Shown: positions 38,380-61,400 of the stretch, piece after piece | Position numbering within the stretch: position 1 is the stretch's first letter | Layout of the letters: every line of letters begins with the position of its first letter | Assembly (NCBI GenBank): GCA_000469685.2 | Contig: LS997565.1 | Coordinates: 33,140,645 to 33,204,644 of the forward strand | From: Haemonchus contortus | Lineage: Eukaryota; Nematoda; Chromadorea; Rhabditida; Trichostrongylidae | Length of the DNA: 64,000 nt | Reading direction: 5' to 3' | Position numbers and translations under genes: made by a program | The notes under the pieces: model-generated | Databases searched by the model: none | What the model was told of the DNA's origin: nothing | The model's input: the letters and a program-made list of their open reading frames with translations, nothing else

Positions 38380-38640
38380 CCAACTACACGATCTACTACT
38401 GCAGGATTTCGCGGGAAAAGATTGTATAAAAGGCGCCCAAGACAGACGGTCTCCTAACCCCTTTTCCGTTTGTTAGTAATCCTGTTATTAACTGTTATTT
38501 TTGCTCGTGTATTGTAACCACTTTGATTACCCAAGTTTGAGATCAATAAATTGCTGTGCTTTGGCCGTCGGTATATACACATCGGAATCCGCGTGGCAAC
38601 AGGCGATACATGAGGGGTCGATGACGGCTGTGATAAAACT
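38380..38640 (+). mobile_element. Solo LTR-like sequence containing SL1 leader sequence
   Basis: A promoter-like TGTATAAAAGGCGCC (about 38425), preceded by TTTCGCGGGAAAAG, is followed after about 100 bp by ATTACCCAAGTTTGAG and then AATAAA (38545-38550). The TCGCGGGAAAA stretch recalls the start of the LTRs at 57293 and 58691. TATA, leader match and poly(A) signal in this order look like U3-R of an LTR. No internal region or second copy is adjacent, and the boundaries are approximate. Confidence 0.45.
38526..38541 (+). other. SL1 spliced-leader sequence match (16/16 core)
   Basis: ATTACCCAAGTTTGAG equals the last 16 bases of the 22-base nematode SL1 leader; three of the six upstream bases also match. 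It is followed by ATCAATAAA, not by the GTAAAC splice donor of a real SL1 RNA gene, so it is not an SL1 gene. Confidence 0.85.
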
Positions 38641-49446: not shown

Positions 49447-52400
49447 TTGACAAAAAAATCGGACTTCAACTTTTCTTCGTGATTGACGCAGCGGATTCGT
49501 TGTAGAATTTCCTTGAGGCTGCTGTAGAGTCATCTAAAAAATCTCTAATGCTAATGATTCAGGTCCAAAAGCAGGTATAGCAGACTCACTTTATTACTCG
49601 CCCTTAGTTTCGTTGCAGTTATACAGTCAAGAACTATTTTAACTGCACACCATGTGCAGCCAGTATAGAGGTCTGTATAAGTTGAAATAATATAGCCACA
49701 TCCTGTATCAGCGAACGTCCATACCCACTGCTGTGTATCGAAAACAACGTAACACGAATCAACTGAAATAGTCGCATCTCAATCAGTTAATTCATCTCCC
49801 AATTATTTGTATTTTATTAAAGTTGAAATGTCGGCTCGAAGAAAGTCTATAAACAACAACAACAACATAATTCTCGAATTTCTACACCATTGAACATGAC
49901 ATAGTCTTCTTGATGCCCTTGTTTCTCTCTGGAAAGTGTGGGCAAATAAAAGTCATCCGGACGATGAACACTGATTGCATGGTTAGATCTCGTGACACAT
50001 TATATCATACTTCATTTGCATTGAATGCGTGATATAATGCGTCACGTAACTACCTACAACTTCAGGCTCAGGGTGGAACAACTATCCAAACAGCAGGGTG
50101 AACCCTGTGGTACGGTTTCAAGATTTTCAAGTGGTTTCCGAGAGTCTCAATGCTTCGAAAAAATAAAAGTCACCCGGACGATGAATATTGGATGATTAAT
50201 CGAGCCGTTGAGCAACAGGGAAGATGAAGATCGGAGATTGACTGACTTCGATAGATGGTCATCACCCATCCGGATCAATAGCTTTCCAACCCTGGTACAC
50301 CTTGTTGTTGCAAGGACTGCGTCCTCTGTTCAGAATGCAATGATGCCACTCATTGCTTCTACCTTACTGCACCAAAAATTAGACAAAAATTAGGATAATG
50401 AATTAATGGGTTAATTTAAGTACTGTGTGAACTCTTCAGAGGTGCCACTACAAAAGAAACTATTCTGCTGCTTTCTCTCGTGGCTACTTCGAGATCATTA
50501 CCAATTCAATTAGTTACCCTCCAGCTTCAATTTTTCCCCTTTTCATTCCATCATCAGATGAAAATAATTATTTGTTCCAGTACTCACCCCAGAAATACGG
50601 GATCACGTGACAGAATGCGATAAACCAAACTACAGCAATGAAGCAGAGTGTGCAATTCTTTTCAAGAACATGCTTGGCACGATAAGGCATCGAAATTGCA
50701 ATGAGTCGATTAATTGATATAAGCAGATGAGTATAGACGCATACGTCCCAGAAGAACATGATCAGCTGCCCAAATATTTTTCCAGGCAGCTCAGTAGCCA
50801 TGCCACTTTGTCTGAAAAAAGTTCAAAAAGTAATGAATTAAAGACTGCAAAATGAGAATGTGACGGTTAAAAATGTGACGGAGCCCTTCTAATATGCACC
50901 GTCTTCATCACAATAACCTTCTAGTGCACCTGTTAGATGGGTGGAAACATCCTTCTTTAATGTGAAAGGAAGTGAAGCTTTTTTAGCCCATTTTGAAGCT
51001 GAGGATTCACTGATCAGAAGATGCGTGTAATAAATTATTTTCGGATTCTCAGTATTTGGATAGATTCAATAATGGATCTCCCTTTAGCCTTACATTTCCT
51101 ATCTGAATTCGGCCTTAAAGGTCTGGTGTGAATCAGAATTGCGTTTTATGCTACCTTGAAGATGTAAGTGCATTGGAAAAATGTATCACCTGTATCACCT
51201 GTATCCGACTTGTCCTCGCGAACTTCTCCATTCACGCAAGTCGACTTTGAGCCATCCATTCCGGTCCTGCGCACGTCGTTTCCATTGTTGGCCGAGCATA
51301 TTCACCATAGGATCGGCCCATCTCAATTTAGGCCTTCCCGGCGCTCGCTTGTGATCCAGTGGGACCCAATTCGTTAGCCGGAAGGTCCATCGGTTGTCTT
51401 TCAATCGTGCCACATGACCGGCCCATTCTCGTTTACGTTTATACATTTCCTGGACAACATCAACAAGGCCACTTCGTCTTCGTAATTCTGTGTTTGTGAT
51501 ATGTTCACGAAGTGACACCTTGCAAATTCTGCGTTCCATAGATCTTTGCATTACAGCAAATTTCTCTTCGTCTGCCTTCGTAGACGACCAGCATTCTGCG
51601 CCATACAAAACCGCGGGTATCACAGTCGAGTGGAAAAGAGACGCTTTCAGTTTCATCGGGAGGTCTTCGTCTAGTAGTAGCGTTGAAATTTTGTTGAAGC
51701 TAGACCAAGCTGCCTTCCTGCGCCTGCTGTACTCTCCACTGCTGCCTTCTGTGAAACTGAGCTGGTGTCCGAGATACTTAAAGCTTTTTACTTCTTCGAT
51801 GGTTTCGCCATCTATTTTGACTGTCGCTGTAGGACTGAATTGGTTGTGCATCCACTTCGTTTTGGACAAGTTCATTTCAAGTCCGATTTCACTCGATTTC
51901 GTCTGTAGTTGCACAAGTTTCGCCTGGAGCTCTGATGCATCATGTGCAAAAACGACGCAGTCGTCTGCAAAGAGTAGATAGGTTAGGTTTTCTCCGTCGA
52001 TCTCAATACCTCCGGTCCAGTCAAGATCAGTGAACAGGGCTTCCAAAGTTAATGCAAACAATTTCGGAGAAATCGTGTCGCCTTGTCGAACGCCCTTGCA
52101 TATTTTTATTTGACATGGATCGTTGAAGAGCTTGATTTCGGTAGTACAGCCTTTGTTCAGCTCTTCGAGAAGGTCGACATAGCACGAATTGACACCGTAT
52201 CTACTCATCGCATTTAGCATCGCGTTTGTTTCGACAGAGTCGAATGCTTTCCTGTAGTCGACAAACGCGATGCATAAGGGAATCCGATACTCTCCACATT
52301 TTTCGGTAAGCTGACGTACGACGTGGAGATGGTCAAGTGTGGAGTACCCACTTCGAAATCCCGCTTGCTCTCGGCTCATGGCCATGTCCAGGTCTCCAAC

Positions 52401-55400
52401 TATGCGATTCAGAATTATTCTGGTAAAGGCCTTATAGACTTGGGACAGCAATGTGATGGGTCTGTAGTTGTCCAAACTCTCGGGATCGCCTTTTTTCATT
52501 AGCAGTATCGTCCGTGATTTCTTCCATGCCGCCGGAATCCTCTTCTCACGGCAGTATCTGCTGAAGCGCTGGGCCAGCGCTTTAAAGAGAGGCAATCCAC
52601 CTGCTTTCAGGTGTTCGGGACGTATGTTGTCGCAACCTGGGCTTTTCCCCGCCTTAATCTGTTTTACTGCATGCTCCACTTCTTCCCACATGACATCTGG
52701 GATCGGTTCTCCTGCAGTGTTTTGAACGGCTCTTGCGACGACCGCCTTTGAAGAGTACAAGTCGTTAAAAAACTTAGTACATATTTCGTTCATCCGGAGG
52801 CGGTTGGTTGTCCTGAGACCTGTATCGTCCTTGAGAGCAGATGGAATGTGGTGCCTAAGGCAAATATCCCTTTCTACGGCTTTCAGACTAACCCTTCTTT
52901 CAGCTGCTTCGCGGAGTTTCTTTTGTCTAAAGCCTTCATAGTCGCATTTTATCTTTTTCCTTATCGCTTCGCAGAGTTCCCTGTAATCCGCGGTTTGCAC
53001 TCGTCCTTCGGCTTTCATGCGCGCTCTCTTCTTCATCATTTGCACCGCTTCTGGAGTTATACGCCGTCGCCTTGCTGGTTCCGTTGCTGTGCTCGATGCC
53101 TTTACGGCCTGCATTATTTTCTCCACTAGATCTTCGTAGTCGGCATCGATGCTGTTACCAGACTTCATCTGTAGGTCTGACGACGCAATCATCGTTGCGT
53201 ACGTGTCGGCATTGAAAGTACGTCGTATGAGTGTTCTTTGCGAATGTAGAACTCGATTTTCTTTTCTGACATCGCAGAGGATCACCGAGCGCAGAAGTCG
53301 GTGATCGGAGCCGGTCGCAATCACACTTTCCCCGATAACGGAGACGTCGGCGAACAATCTCGGTGTATCGGTAAGCACATAATCAATCTGTCTTAAAGTT
53401 TTCGTGTCCGGGCTCCTCCAAGTCCAAAGACGCTTGGCTTTTTTCTCGAAGAAGGTGTTCATTATCGAGAATTTGTGTTGTTCTGCAAACTCGACTAGAC
53501 GGTTTCCTCTTTCGTTTCTTACTCCTACGCCGTACCTTCCTAGAAGGTGTTCCGTACCGTCCAATCGGGAGCCGACTACGGCGTTAAAATCGCCTTGAAC
53601 AATAGTGTACGTCGATTTGACCTTCAAAGCCCTCTCTATTTCCTCGTAGAAACGCTCAAGTTCGTCGTCCTCTGCTGATGCAGTGGGCGCATATACTTGC
53701 ACGATTTTGAGCGTTCGATCCCCCAGCTTTTGCAACTCGATCTTCAGAACCGCAACTCGTGGGGACTGAATATCGCAAGAAATCACATACGGGGCCATCT
53801 TTGCTTTCACGATAAAACCGACTCCACCTGTTCTGGACACATTATCAGCTCCTTCTCCTAGCAGAATTTCTTCACCGCTCGACCACTTCGCTGAGACCGC
53901 TCGTGCTCTCCTAGTTTCGCAAACACCGACGATGTCGGCTTTGATCTTCTCTATCTGTTGCAGGTATATGTCTAGGAGAGAGTCCGTCGATAATGTCCTG
54001 ACGTTGTGGGAAGCGATGTGTATTCTGATGCGTCCGTGGTCCTTATTCCGCCCCTGCCTTACGCCGAGGTGTGGGCTTGTTGTGCAGAGTCGGGGCATCC
54101 TCGCACGCCCATCTCGGGTCCAAATCATACCATTTTCAAAGTTTTTGGCGGTTTTCTGTTGCAGCAGTACATTCGGGTTGGCAGCCCTCTTGTCCTATAG
54201 CTGCTTTGTTCGCTCGATTGTTCGCGACTGCTTATTCAATATATTCGCAGCTAACCGCCACGGTGGACGGCCTTTCCTCAATCCACGACCTGAGGACGTC
54301 TGTACTCCTTCCAAATTTGAACGCCACAGGACCAAGAGTTATGAATTTCTGCTCAGACCCGTCCACGTGCCCACTGTGGGCGTAGTCCCACCAAATTTGA
54401 ACGTTCTTGGTCTACGGAGACAGGGGGCGGGGTTTGGTTCTGCCAACCAACCATAAATGTTCCCATTCTGTCTCCAGTAGTCCTACCAAATTTGAACGCT
54501 CGAGATCCACGGGTGCAGGAATTACGTTTTTCCGATGAAACATTTATTTCGTGCAAACCCTGCCATCTGTTCGCGAAGTCTAGTCCTTCCACCCACCATA
54601 AGTGTTACTATCTTGTCGCCTGTACTCCTACCAAGTTTGCACGCTCTGGGTCCACGGGGATGGAAGTTATGAATTCCCGAACGAACACCCACACTTCTCG
54701 ATGGACCGTTTCTTTTCATCTTGTCAAGGTGCGCTCCCAAGAAAAGGGTGGCCCTGTTTAACAAATCTGGCGGGACTCAGCACAAGACTTCCTTATCCAC
54801 CGGCGTTCTGAACTCGAAACTTTTAATCATGTCTTCTGCAAAAGCACTCACTTTGAACCCTGCTGAAAACCGAGTTCCTTTGATGGAAGGTAGTCAAACT
54901 ATGTATAAGCTTACCTCAAGTTCATTGGTGTCACCCAAAACATGAATACGATCATTACGCCTAGATTGGCAACACAATGTGAAAGGCAAAGAAGTCCAAA
55001 AGAGCTTCTGAGTGCTGGGTTCATGCGCACTGTATGTAGCGCTAGAACGTTAAATATTATCCCGAGAAGAGCAATCTGAAAAGTATGGATTAAAAGAAAC
55101 TGTCATTATAACTATAAGTGTAGGCTACTAGACACTAAAAATAGTCCCTTCTTTGAATACACCTTTTTTCGCAATAGTGTCTATAAATGTTTGAGTGTTT
55201 GTGAAGTGAATCCATGTGTGCCACTTGAGGCTGTTTAACATCCCCAAAACGAAACTTTCTTGAGGGTAATGACCTTTTGGCTCTCTCTTGATCGGTTTTT
55301 TAGAAGATATAAGCCCATACGTCGAGTTGCCTAATATTTTCTCAGACTCAAAGCTCGGTCCCATTAGGTAATCAGCAAAATCGAATCCATTCCGACTGAT

Positions 55401-58400
55401 TTCGTCGTCACGATAAATGGTATGGGATGTGGCGGATTTTACAGCCCTCACATTTGATCATCTCTGATCGGTTCCCACAACCATTACAAATGTCTTTTGT
55501 ACACCATATTACATCTCCCAACCTTTCCCTTTTATCATTTGCCATAGGTGCCATATTCATGGATTTCTAAAGGACCGTTTTTCAAAGGATCGCTCTTCAG
55601 TGAAATAAGTGGTCAACAACGATGTCGTAATCCGTAACAAATTACTGAGCCTTTGGAGAAACCCTCCATTTCCCTTTCCTTCAATTCCACTAGTTTTCTC
55701 ATATCTGTTCGGCCTTTTTCATCCGGTTTCCTACATGCGTCTAGCCAAACGACAGGCATGTTGATGTTTTCTGTGGAAGTGGACTACCGGAAGAGAATTT
55801 TTTCCATCACCAATGCTCTTAAAAAGTCTGAATTTTATCAGCTTGCTTAATTCTCCTCCCGTTCCAGGTATTATTGAAGGCAGTGCCATTCTAATACTTT
55901 TTTTTTATAACTACGTTCACACTCCAAATGCCTACATTCTTCCAAATGGTCATCGGATTTTTCAGGCTGCTCCATGGAGTTCACTACTTCATAATTGCCA
56001 AGTAGTAAGGGGTGACTCCCTGTTACAGCCCTTCTCGAAGCCCGGCATCCAAAATTGCAATGACTTTTTCTACGAAAGATGCCACTTGTTCCTCAGCAGA
56101 CGAAGCCAGCATAATTTAAAGTTCCTTCTAATAACATCGCTATTGGTACTGTAGTCATTGTAGGTATAGTCCTGCCTTTGAAATGCTTCATCTTTAGATG
56201 GATTAGTTTATGCAACAGTAGAGATTGCTATGAATTACGACGAAATGAAATGATACAATAATTCCAGTCGTGGGACCTACAGTAAGGGTACTGTCACAGG
56301 GTTGAGGTGATCCTAACAGGCCAAAGTAATCGAATCATCACACTCTTTCCTACTTTATCACCGTACCACATTATAGTCAGAACAGCAGGCTATTACAGTT
56401 TTTGGAAGACACTCATGAATTTCATTTGGCAAGCTTTTACATCTCGCATGAATCAGCTTCGACGTCAGTGCAGAGATCTCATTATTATTTATATCGTATA
56501 CTGCAGATTGTAAAAACTTCTGCTCTACGACAAACCAAAGAAAAAGCTGCCTGATTAAGAACTTAGCTTAAAATTTCGAATCTATAGAATGAATATTCGG
56601 ATCGCTAGGCTTCACTCGACCAAAACATGGAATACACTAGAGCGTGACTGACATTTGAACCACTTTTAACCGCTTTCCGTCTCCATATCTTCAACATCAT
56701 CCGCATGTGCATCGATGATTTGGTAACTTTCCCGATGACATGAAGTTGTTCTCTGTTCTGAGCACCCTACTCACTCGTAAGTCCTGTTCTGCGATAAACA
56801 CCTGTCACCACACTGCACTTGTGATCGGCAAATAATGCCGAAAGGCTTTGTATGTAGAGAAGTAGAGTTTTTCCTGCATACGCACGAATCACTACTCCTA
56901 TGCACTACTCAATGGAGATTGATACCACTATGTTTACCGGTCTGCTTTGCTCGAAGCAACGACTAATGATACGAAAAACAGGCGGTGTCAAAAGGTTCCT
57001 AATCATATCGCCTTTATGGGCGCTCGCTCGCACCTTACTTTCCTCCTTTGTGGTGTAGTGTCGTGTAGCGCACTATCACACTTTTCCGGTCAAGGGAACG
57101 AATCTTGACTTGATACCCACCTAGGCCAATCGAGGGTTCTAGTCCTTCAGGATGGGTTAATTCCTGCTGGTTCTTCCTACTCGTCAAGTAAGATGAAAGC
57201 ACTGGCATAGGTTGGCCACTGAAAGTCATTGAATAGGCCCCGAACGCATTCAAAGCGTCACTTCCGCTCTGTATCACGATGGTGTTCTCCATTGATCCGA
57301 GATCGCGCGGGAAAACTGCGCACGCATGCCGACGCCCCGTGCTCAAGTTTCATTGATAGATTCGGCAACCGCGGATTGAGCATCACCGGATAACGCATAC
57401 TTTTTCTCATCTTTGGTTCATCTTACTCGCTTACCTCCCTTGTTCATCTCACTTTAACATTGCGCATTGCACGAAGTTTTGCATGTTAGTATGCTATGTA
57501 TGTATGTTGTTTTGTATGTGTTGTATGTATTTATGTTTTATATGTTTTGTATGTGTGTGTAAGTTGAATAAACGTTTAATTACCCAAGTTTGAGCTATTC
57601 GGTCACCGGACCAACCTAACCCAATCGAACTCACATTTGGTGCATCGGCCGGGAAGATAGAGAATAACTCAAGCTTCAGTTCTATGCAAAGGCGAATCAC
57701 CCCTAAGAGCCACCTGGAAAAGGTGCATCTCGAAGGATGTTGCACAACAGATATTAAGATGTGCGTCGGAAGCAACAGCAATGGGCTACGACTTACACGA
57801 ACTTCTAGTTCTCTAGGACGATACGTTGGCGACCTCAAAAGACAAGGTTTCTGAGGAGAAGGTGGAAGGAGTGTCCCTGGATCCGACATTCATGGCAGAC
57901 TTCATTCTTTCATGAGGCCCAGTTTCAATCGGAAATAGAGACCCATGAATCCATCTAAGAAGAAATCAGGCGCATGTTGAAAAGGCTTGAGCAGAAAATT
58001 GTTGAAAGATTCGACCAATTCGGCCAGCAACAGGAAAGGTGCATCAACAGATTGACTGATCTCAAACACAAGGTCAAGAAAACATGGGGTCACTGCTTGC
58101 AATAGCAGGAGGAAATCAAGGACATGCTAAAGGATCCCATCAAAGCCAGACATTCCGTTGCAGACAAACACACGCATTCACCGACTCCAGCAACACCATT
58201 ACGACGCGGCGCCAAAGAAGAAGACCTTCTAGACTTAAAAGCCGAAGTCGTTTTCGAGCATTCTGACGGTGGAGGTGTCGACGACAATAATAACGGCAGA
58301 GCTGAGCCACTCACCGCGGGAGAAGAAAGGCTCGAACTCGAGCATCGGCTAGACGTCCTAAAGAAGCTAATCGAGTCGGAGCTCAAAGTTCCCGAAAAAA

Positions 58401-61400
58401 GATTAACATGCACGACCCTATGCAAAACAAGGACCGTTTTCTCCTATGTTCGTTCTGTTTCGCCAAAGGTCTGCACCATAGCGATGTCCATACTGCAAAG
58501 GGAAGGCTGAAGCGCATCCGTCGTGACATTTGTCTGTCTGTCGTGTCAAGGCTATGTGCCGTCTTCCTGAACGCATCTATGAATACTACGTGAAAGCGAA
58601 AAAATTGCGCAAGAACTCGAACCAAGCAGAGATTGTTATTATAAGCCTGCACCATCCCGAAGAAGAGAGTATCGCGAAGGGGATCTCCACTGGACAGAGA
58701 TCGCGCGGGAAAATTGCGCACGCATGCCGACGCCCCATACTCAAGTTTCATTGATAGATTTGGGGACCACGAAATCACCGGATAGCGCATCCTTTTTCTC
58801 ATCTCTGATTCATCTTACTCGCTTATCTCCTTTGTTCATCTCACTTTAACACTGCACATCTTTCTTTTTTCTCATCTTTAACATCTTTGCACGAAGTTTT
58901 GTATTTATGCATTCTAAACTTTATTATTGGTTTACTCGCCCATGTTATTTATTCACTTCTACTTCACTGATAAGTCATTTGTTATTCGTTCTTGCGCATT
59001 GTTATTTTGATATTTGTTCATATTTGTTTACTCTCAACACTTCCATGAGATTCTCGCATTCCTTTTACCGGCATTTGTTCGCACTTCGTACGGTTTAGCT
59101 ATACTGTACTCTTTTTGATATCTCTACGTGCTCACTATTACTTTTTCGTGTTTGTCACGTCACTTAATCGCTCACTAAAGTTAAATAAAACATTATATTA
59201 ACTATCATTACCCAAGTTTGAGTTTGAGCTATTCGCACGAGTCGGTCACCTGACCAACCTACCTCAATCGAGCTCACTCACTTAATATTCTACTGCTGAG
59301 CCTCATTCCACAACGGAATTGATCAAAGCGAAAAGGTCACGTCCTTATCACCTTCTACTACTCAAAGGTCAGACGCATAAGAGCTCACAAACACGTATAG
59401 GCAGACATACTAGGCCGATAATATAAAGGCGGCTGTTGATAAAAGAGGTATGAACTAGAACGTTCGGACAGTCCAACGTGCTCTATGTACCCACCACGCG
59501 AGAGCAAGTTTTAGGAAGAGGTGGTCACCGTAGCTCAGGACGTGGAAGCAAAACTCTATGCATCGGATGGCGATTAGGGAAATATTTTATCGATTGAGAT
59601 AGACATTCTTTCACAGGAAACCATACGCAATGGATATCCATGGTTCGAGGAAAGCATTTCCGGTGAATCCTTGACACCAAGCAAAAACTTGAATGGTTTG
59701 GATATGCTCTGTAGGCCCTTATGTATAGATAAATGTGAACATTGGTCAAAAAATACATAGAGCCTCGAAAATATCCCGTGGGAGATCAATAAGCCATTGC
59801 CAATTGCCGATTTTCATTGGAAAAAGGTGACTCAATGATCTTTTGCTTCATATCTACCTATAATCCAATTAAGTGACTATTCAAACGATAATTCTGTTAT
59901 CGTTTTAGCCCATTCAAGTTGTATTCATAGAAAGGCTTACACTGTTCATAAATTATTATCCAAGAGCGTTTTAGCAATAAATGAGCAACAGCAAAGTGTC
60001 TGGATGAGAAGCACTCCCGATAATTCCTTACAGGCTTCGAAAGTGAACGTCTAACCTAATCACATTTTCGGCCACCACGGCGAGCATTGAAGCATTAAAA
60101 TACATCGCACATGTGGGTAAAGGATTTTCCCGAAGTCATATGGGCTAGGAGAGTCACCTGTGATAAAGGACAGAAACATACTGGAGCCGAGGCTGATTTT
60201 TGCCGTTCCAGGGCATCGGACAAACACCGCTGGCTAATGTCTCAACAATCTCGAACATATCAATAACTTTGCACCGATCCTGTTATTTTTGGCTATTCTT
60301 CTAAATCCGACGATGAGAAAAATCTTCGTTCAACGCTGACTTATCATGGTTAATTTCAAAATTCTACACTACCAGTTTCCAGTCATCTATTTCAGTAGCC
60401 TCCTTAAGTTACACAGCTCTCACGATTGTTTTTTAGAAATCTGCTCACCCCACGCACCTGGTGGCAGCGCGGACAAAAAGTTATTCGTAGCCAACGACTT
60501 TCGCAATCGGATGCGCCCTCTCATTTGACTTCCATTCAGAATTGTAGTGGCGTATTGAATGTGTATGTGGCCTATACTATGAATTGCGGTGGCTAGCTAA
60601 TGTACAAGTCAGTGCTTTCATCCTCCCGGGCGAGTCTGGTACCAATAAAGCGACCTCGGAGGGATGGAAAGCTTGATTGGTTCTCGATCTGGTATACGAA
60701 CCCTTGACTAGGCGTATGAGATAGTGCGCCACTTGCCTCTACACCATCCCCCCTTGATGTATTCGCATGCAATGAATTACGATTACGGTTTTCCCACAAG
60801 GCTCCCATGCACGAAGCCTTGACCCAAGGACGATATTACTTGCTTCGACGTGCTCACAGATACCGCACAACACCTGTAGGAAATCTTTGGGGAACTCTCA
60901 GATCCTCTTCCCGTGTGCCACATTCATATACTGCTCGGCAGAATCGAATACAGCCCGAGCCTCCACTGAATGAAGCTGTCAAGCCGTTGACTGTCAGAGA
61001 AAATCCTGTACTGGACTGTACCAAGATAAGAATAAAATAAGATTTGACGAGGCTGAACTAAATTATTGCTTTTTCAACAATAAGGATGATGATGTAATAG
61101 TGAGAACATAAAATTCGAATAGTGCATATCTTGGCGAATCGCGTAAGAAGTCGAAAGAAGCTACAACGTAGCTTATGAATCCGTTACAGCATTAACTTCC
61201 TTGCTCGGAACAGTTGAGGGATGAAGGAATGACGGTGTCTATAAAAGTCCAAAGTCTTTCGCTGTAATCAATCCCGTCTGAGGGATGCACCCCGCAAACG
61301 ACTTCCACGCAGAATCGTAGTGGCGTTTTGAATGGGTATGCGGCCCAACTGCGGTGCCCAGCCGATGTACAAATCAGTGCTTTTAGCCTCGTAGACGAGT

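Follow-up and report, generated by a model that had tools for sequence, protein, structure and literature searches.

In a 64,000-nucleotide stretch of the Haemonchus contortus genome (assembly GCA_000469685.2, contig LS997565.1, positions 33,140,645 to 33,204,644, forward strand; the whole stretch is called the window here, and positions are counted from its first letter), a retrotransposon-like element at 57006-59283 carries the host spliced leader SL1 in both of its long terminal repeats (LTRs). The presence of SL1 in LTRs was found to be real and general in this genome. Comparison of the elements concerned suggests that the genomic RNA of Bel/Pao retrotransposons is trans-spliced with host SL1 before reverse transcription, and that SL1 would be the 5' end of the terminal repeat (R), renewed in each cycle; we put the probability of this reading at roughly 65%. 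The parts of the window element are as follows.

57006..57637, plus strand: 5' LTR of an old, short Bel/Pao-like element; it starts with TATCGC, as do several other LTRs read, its end adjoins the primer-binding site (PBS), and its partner begins at 58670
57567..57572, plus strand: AATAAA immediately 5' of SL1 in the 5' LTR
57573..57594, plus strand: SL1 copy in the 5' LTR, the proposed 5' end of R; 21 of 22 bases, the first base being C and 57574-57594 exact
57595..57637, plus strand: remainder of R and U5 in the 5' LTR
57638..57655, plus strand: putative PBS TGGTGCATCGGCCGGGAA, complementary to the 3' end of tRNA-Gly(GCC); the primer identity is taken from locus L047
57656..58669, plus strand: internal region of about 1 kb without a long frame; non-autonomous or deleted
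58670..59283 (end approximate), plus strand: 3' LTR, with a TATCGC start as in the 5' LTR
59184..59189, plus strand: AATAAA 5' of SL1 in the 3' LTR, ending 17 bases ahead of the core
59207..59222, plus strand: SL1 core in the 3' LTR, 16 exact bases
59223..59228, plus strand: additional TTTGAG after the SL1 of the 3' LTR, a repeat expected from trans-splicing at the internal AAG of SL1

The preliminary description of this DNA had reported 21 of the 22 SL1 bases in the 5' LTR, a perfect 16-base core in the 3' LTR and AATAAA shortly before each, and all of these were recovered at the positions above. A search for the 22-base SL1 with at most three mismatches gave two matches in the window (57573 and 38520, the latter a third site described below) and none in 100 shuffles; the SL1 of the 3' LTR has four mismatches over 22 bases and hence falls outside this list. 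The repeat pair around the 57573 and 59207 sites consists of pieces of 103 and 86 bases that are 85% and 91% identical, and the pair starting at 57006 and 58670 looks like an old LTR pair. By eye, no target-site duplication was clearly resolved, and no gag or pol frame was found in the 1-kb interior, where the longest frame has 143 amino acids (frames only, without a family search). The element would be at most a non-autonomous or deleted relative of Bel/Pao, with which it has the LTR start, the PBS type and the place of SL1 in common. Because it is old and short, it is a poor copy for judging a mechanism, and the argument below rests on its genomic relatives. In the family to which it belongs, a poly(A)-type signal stands directly before SL1 in eight of nine rows (seven AATAAA and one TATAAA); the ninth row, which lacks it there, is the 3' LTR of the window element. 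A TATG-rich stretch of the 5' LTR (57480-57566) matches many repeat-like places in the genome and was not seen in the 3' LTR.

According to the part of PMC7652881 consulted, SL1 of H. contortus is GGTTTAATTACCCAAGTTTGAG and SL2 is GGTTTTAACCCAGTATCTCAAG. The SL1 RNA genes that were read continue with a GTA splice donor, and the SL1 sites of the window are followed by CTATTC, TTTGAG and ATCAAT; an Rfam scan of the window at gathering thresholds gave no matches. Lacking both the GTA donor and an Rfam match, the window sites were ruled out as SL1 RNA genes or pseudogenes, which bears out the earlier statement that the two LTR copies are not leader genes. The window pair was likewise rejected as an SL1-tagged retrogene, that is, a single SL1 before a host coding frame, since both sites lie in an LTR pair with a PBS. 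At three other loci of the genome, L040 (porin), L051 (kinesin) and L080 (kinase), SL1 does stand shortly ahead of host frames; these are apparent retrogenes of trans-spliced mRNAs and form a separate class. An exact 20-base core of SL2 followed by a letter other than A was found at four genome sites, all before a GTAC donor and, by eye, an SL-RNA-like tail. At this exact-20-base-core stringency, the leader feature of the LTRs appears to be specific to SL1. A search for SL1 in a collection of viral contigs gave no matches.

The genome sequence searched comprised 283,439,308 bases in seven contigs. The 16-base SL1 core (bases 7-22) occurred 392 times and its reversed control not at all. By the letters that follow, 39 cores continue with a base other than G, 163 with G, T and a base other than A, and 93 with G and a base other than T, which makes 295; the remaining 97 continue with GTA and are of the SL1 RNA gene type. 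Among the 100 places listed, elimination leaves 66 of the GTA type, 65 of them in two tandem arrays on contig C1 and one at C1:29897663. The 97 GTA-followed sites were excluded from the site lists used for pairs and for gag. The 295 other sites formed 49 same-strand pairs 4-13 kb apart and no opposite-strand pairs (1.24 expected by random placement, for which approximate contig sizes were used), with identical following letters in 45 of the 49.

Sixty-two unique loci were read, 3 kb each. Nine of the 11 neighbouring pairs among them are clean LTR pairs of 296-862 bases, 94.5-100% identical, with the same PBS type after the 5' LTR and with SL1 placed 24-167 bases ahead of the LTR end. L085/L086, which overlap in tandem, and the degenerate pair of the window make up the remaining two. 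A target duplication of 4-5 bases was seen by eye in seven of the nine clean pairs, the exceptions being L007/L006 and L077/L076. The preliminary description had placed SL1 at the expected R region, and in both LTRs of many elements SL1 does lie where R should begin. Altogether, 46 of the 62 loci were classed as LTR-type by pair, PBS, cluster or a U5 motif (five of them through the U5 motif alone), and 47 when L059 is added by its homology to the window family; 16 loci had no LTR sign before L059 was reassigned. Grouping of the 47 LTR-type loci gave 22 groups with a threshold of 75% identity over 60 bases and 16 with any similarity. Three of the 22 groups (L055, L056 and L059) are the window family, which leaves about 20 families. 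Because the loci were selected by the exact 16-base core, conservation of bases 7-22 is uninformative in them; only bases 1-6 and searches with whole LTRs are unbiased.

The domain DUF1759 (PF03564), which we take to mark Bel/Pao gag, was found in all five frames tested (of six listed) from 3' of 5' LTRs, with E values of 3e-20 to 7e-29. Starting from the 150 best DUF1759 gag hits, an exact same-strand SL1 core was found upstream of 36, at a distance of 552-1261 bases (0.16 expected); none of the 150 has SL1 upstream on the opposite strand or within 3 kb downstream. Frames around the gag hits reach 2,866 amino acids, and 2,769 where SL1 lies upstream. Five frames taken from ahead of 3' LTRs gave no family match above cut-off. 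Paired LTRs, a PBS and a target duplication of 4-6 bases are marks of a Bel/Pao LTR retrotransposon, and the clean pairs show them, the duplication in seven of the nine. Four stretches ahead of gag for which no SL1 had been listed (L121-L124) contained no SL1-like stretch better than shuffles; L121 and L123 have the same PBS, and in L122 and L124, where the LTR may lie outside the stretch read, no PBS was seen. These four stretches led to rejection of SL1 as a universal feature of Bel/Pao, and SL1 marks a subset of tRNA-Gly-primed Bel/Pao elements.

The U5 motif CCGCGTGGCA, which is complementary to the anticodon loop of tRNA-Gly(GCC), is present in many SL1-carrying LTRs (for example, L006, L043 and L088) and also in L121, which lacks SL1. 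It was analysed, as were upstream positions, in 30 representatives that include L080 with its kinase frame, L015 with a DENN frame and some unclassified loci. The 9-mer CGCGTGGCA with at most one mismatch was found in 14 of the 30 stretches after SL1 (two of which are not LTRs), with 0.3 expected, and 9-mers outside the neighbouring offsets 33-37 reached at most 3 of 30. This suggests that the U5 motif may be a second contact with the primer, comparable to that between HIV-1 and tRNA-Lys. At L047, on the minus strand from 1465 down to 1392, a complete antisense tRNA-Gly(GCC) directly adjoins the end of an LTR, which looks like a chimera of an LTR and a whole primer tRNA.

Renewal and inheritance of SL1 were compared in a family collected with a whole LTR as the query (family B), in which SL1 makes up 22 of the 314 query bases. 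Twenty-four copies (23 versus the query) of 26 hits were aligned, the partial copy C2:5480218 and the 42-base last hit being excluded; L017 and L003 are related to this family and absent from its hit list. In the 11 divergent copies, identity was 72.7% in the flanks and 95.0% in SL1, and the exact core was present in 17 of the 23 copies, with 4.16 expected from flank identity. On a tree built from the flanks only, the 280 flank columns contained 237 private changes and 167 inherited ones, and the 22 SL1 columns 15 private and 0 inherited (Fisher 0.0006). Per site, private changes were alike in flanks and SL1 (0.85 vs 0.68), whereas inherited changes numbered 0.60 vs 0.00. Zero inherited changes were found only in alignment windows over SL1, and under three alignment settings a minority letter present in at least three copies occurred in 92-97 flank columns vs none of the 22 SL1 columns. 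Judged by these changes, SL1 in family B decays like its neighbours after insertion and enters new copies clean, as would be expected if host SL1 RNA were the template or if selection were very strong. In a second family (that of L005; 17 LTR-like of 20 hits), the exact core was present in 10 of 16 copies (3.01 expected) and in three of the nine copies of at most 85% identity (0.15 expected), and the six copies without it were read and each found to retain SL1 with a few changes. Conservation of SL1 beyond the surrounding LTR, which had been proposed earlier as something to look for, was evident in both families tested, SL1 being far more conserved between copies.

The edges of the conserved block were studied in the 30 representatives and again in the 22 LTR groups. 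In the latter, base 1 of SL1 is G in 14 groups, and bases 2-6 match in 20, 20, 19, 21 and 18; agreement with the commonest base averages 0.46 over positions -40 to -1 and 0.37 over +23 to +62. The conserved block apparently begins at leader base 1 or 2, with a sharp 5' edge. The altered first base that members of some families have in common would fit a failure to copy the base adjacent to the cap.

The sequence TATAAAAR occurs within 300 bases 5' of SL1 at 14 of the 47 LTR loci (0.69 expected by shuffling), always at -91 to -209. At this distance it implies that transcription, where the sequence is present, would start well before SL1. Over positions -90 to -1 no position stands out (highest 0.51 bits, mean 0.12), and given this and the distance of TATAAAAR where it is found, a transcription start at SL1 itself was rejected. 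Ten of the 22 groups have AATAAA near SL1, at most 25 bases ahead of it or 45 bases behind it (0.59 expected); the signal comes after SL1 in eight and before it in two, both of the window family; when signal variants are counted, 17 of the 22 groups have one, after SL1 in 11 and only before it in six. With the signal after SL1, R would extend some tens of bases beyond SL1, and with the signal before it, R would be SL1 alone or nearly so. The preliminary description had proposed SL1 as the whole of R; this fits families such as that of the window, in which the poly(A) signal stands just before SL1, and not the eight of ten AATAAA-bearing group representatives that have it after SL1.

From these patterns we infer that the genomic RNA is trans-spliced, and also the splice acceptor, the site of poly(A) addition and the strand transfer, as follows. 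Transcription would start in U3, 5' of SL1. As the 3' splice site, the RNA would use the final bases of the SL1 that the LTR itself carries (..TTTGAG|), and the outron, including the DNA-encoded SL1, would be swapped for the capped host leader. Minus-strand strong-stop DNA primed by tRNA-Gly would copy U5 and then the leader up to the 5' end of the RNA, and its end would pair with the SL1 near the 3' end of the RNA, where the poly(A) signal lies just before or shortly after SL1, which would accomplish the first strand transfer. Both new LTRs would thereby gain an SL1 templated by host SL1 RNA. In an ordinary LTR retrotransposon, R is present at both RNA ends, serves the first strand transfer and begins at the element's own transcription start; LTR elements and retroviruses encode this terminal repeat themselves. 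Here, by contrast, its 5' part equals a host exon and would be supplied in trans. In cap-snatching by segmented negative-strand RNA viruses, a capped host 5' leader serves as a primer and does not stay in the genome; the proposed mechanism resembles it in using a capped host leader and differs in that the leader would become integrated DNA. The chances appear even that the mechanism holds in its strict form, in which the 5' part of R would never be inherited, host SL1 RNA would write it in every cycle and host trans-splicing would be obligatory; in families with the signal before SL1, the 22-base host exon would then constitute the entire terminal repeat, and the poly(A) signal of the 5' LTR would be lost from the RNA through the same trans-splicing.

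A possible trace of this splicing was found after SL1. If the acceptor is the end of the LTR's SL1, splicing at the internal AAG instead, six bases 5' of that end, would place TTTGAG directly behind SL1. Exact TTTGAG follows SL1 at five of the 62 loci, which represent four elements: L035, L041, L043/L044 (one element) and L056, which is the window 3' LTR. A five-base form is present at L047, and TTTGAA forms at L057 and L116. Repeats of an SL1 suffix of length 4 or 7-16 were not found among the 62 loci. Elsewhere, 6-base tandem repeats occurred at 17 of 22,048 positions of 53 loci, which also included L080, L015 and a few unclassified loci.

Several observations weigh against the proposed mechanism. 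The TTTGAG repeats could be plain slippage, and UUUGAG is weak relative to the nematode 3' splice-site consensus. The mechanism does not account for the T found at +24, the second base after SL1, in 18 of the 22 groups whatever the first base is. TATAAAAR is absent from 33 of the 47 LTR loci, and its 14 carriers amount to about six families and to 4 of the 22 group representatives; closer, loosely TATA-like stretches are also present in three families, namely TATATAT at -39 to -48 (L009, L010, L076 and L077), TTATAAAT at -56 (L005) and TATATAAAT at -8 (L059). Copies of the window family are mostly degenerate, and an exact core is missing from the 3 kb upstream of 114 of the 150 best gag hits. 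Three SL1 columns of family B are changed in exactly two copies, which the tree reads as separate events, and L128 and L130 of the second family have two SL1 changes in common; these two are probably one duplicated locus, since the letters past the LTR end also match. In Caenorhabditis elegans, according to the passages available of PMC3315495, full-length RNA of the Gypsy element Cer1 is not trans-spliced, and a spliced 2.4-kb mRNA occurs with and without SL1. Finally, zero inherited changes would also result from strong purifying selection on an SL1 encoded by the element.

Under such selection, the RNA would have to resemble a trans-spliced host mRNA for translation, stability or packaging, and trans-spliced RNA would not be the template. 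The presence of SL1 across many families would be accounted for as well. This explanation works only if almost every one of the 21-22 bases is essential, however, and predicts neither TTTGAG repeats at the internal AAG nor a sharp edge at the first bases of the leader; moreover, transcripts from the upstream TATA would lack a 5' SL1 unless they were trans-spliced. We consider it unlikely. Just as doubtful is a mixed use, in which genomic RNA usually starts at the U3 TATA site, R includes the outron and SL1, and trans-spliced RNA is mainly mRNA that becomes a template occasionally, yet often enough for SL1 to stay clean. The TATA 91-209 bases upstream at 14 of the 47 loci is in line with this, as are the RNAs of Cer1 (PMC3315495, available passages), but the absence of any inherited SL1 change on the 24-copy tree of family B would demand frequent renewal.

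A third possibility is that the LTRs took SL1 over from SL1 RNA genes as a promoter or start-site element, with RNA polymerase II starting at its first base and no splicing involved; it seems improbable. It is favoured by the G and then T often found after SL1, an order also present in the SL RNA gene, and in Ascaris the SL sequence is reportedly part of the SL RNA gene promoter. Such an element does not agree with the lack of a prominent position at -90 to -1 (the upstream letters of SL genes were not formally compared) or with TATAAAAR far upstream and none at -40 to -20, and it leaves the TTTGAG repeats without explanation. In addition, 65 of the 66 listed GTA-followed sites lie in the two tandem arrays, so LTR sites seem to avoid the GTA of the gene. 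A simpler account, offered in the preliminary description, was that SL1 is a passenger, acquired in a single capture from a trans-spliced transcript. It has parallels in the SL1 retrogenes of this genome (L040, L051 and L080) and in the Brugia malayi case, read in the available passages of PMC7181701 as leaders added to expressed elements and integrated. A passenger should inherit its changes at the rate of the flanks, but in family B there are 0 such changes in SL1 vs 167 in the flanks, and SL1 recurs in about 20 LTR families. The test of inherited and private changes in that family, in which flank changes are inherited and SL1 changes are not, disfavours this account, and we regard it as very improbable.

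The preliminary description had left it undecided whether such LTRs were already known. SL1 beside Pao elements is known: in B. malayi, 120 integral SL1 sequences were reported, 60 of them within 1 kb of PAO elements and occasionally two flanking one element, from which the authors inferred that the leader is added to expressed elements that are then integrated (PMC7181701, Nat Commun 2020, passages available). The Brugia sequences resemble those described here in lying outside SL RNA genes and near Pao, sometimes as two same-strand copies flanking one element. They differ in that flanking pairs are occasional and are taken as a trace of past addition; the passages available of that paper contain no analysis of R, strand transfer, renewal, inheritance or splice traces. 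In flatworms, an SL exon in LTR or LINE (long interspersed nuclear element) loci or other transposable elements was attributed to possibly integrated trans-spliced transcripts (PMC12582326, PMC5832876); these cases concern another phylum and another leader, were set aside in those studies, and come without LTR anatomy in the passages seen. Relict leaders on dinoflagellate retrogenes likewise arise from trans-spliced mRNA that was reverse transcribed and inserted, but as a single 5' tag, according to the part of PMC12014239 seen, whereas the leader here lies in both LTRs and is passed on. No report of a leader serving as R or in strand transfer was found in the literature searched, which consisted of titles, beginnings of abstracts and passages, with subscription papers mostly outside the search. 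The new element of the proposed reading is the renewal of SL1 by trans-splicing.

If the proposed mechanism is correct, a host exon added in trans would be a part of a genome-carried repeat that the host writes in each generation, and replication of a retroelement would be tied to SL trans-splicing. This would account for leaders beside Pao elements in another nematode and would provide a DNA record of the choice of trans-splice sites.

The third SL1 site of the window belongs to another LTR family and has the following parts.

38425..38432, plus strand: TATAAAAG, 95 bases 5' of the third SL1
38520..38541, plus strand: third SL1 copy, 19 of 22 bases with the core exact; relative L087
38545..38550, plus strand: AATAAA shortly 3' of the third SL1
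38589..38598, plus strand: U5 motif CCGCGTGGCA, complementary to the tRNA-Gly anticodon loop

This site was classed as an LTR through its U5 motif and its relative L087, and a PBS and a partner were not found. Elsewhere in the window, the minus strand of 51195-54194 contains a 999-codon stop-to-stop frame with, by eye, the look of an endonuclease and a reverse transcriptase, which is probably a LINE.

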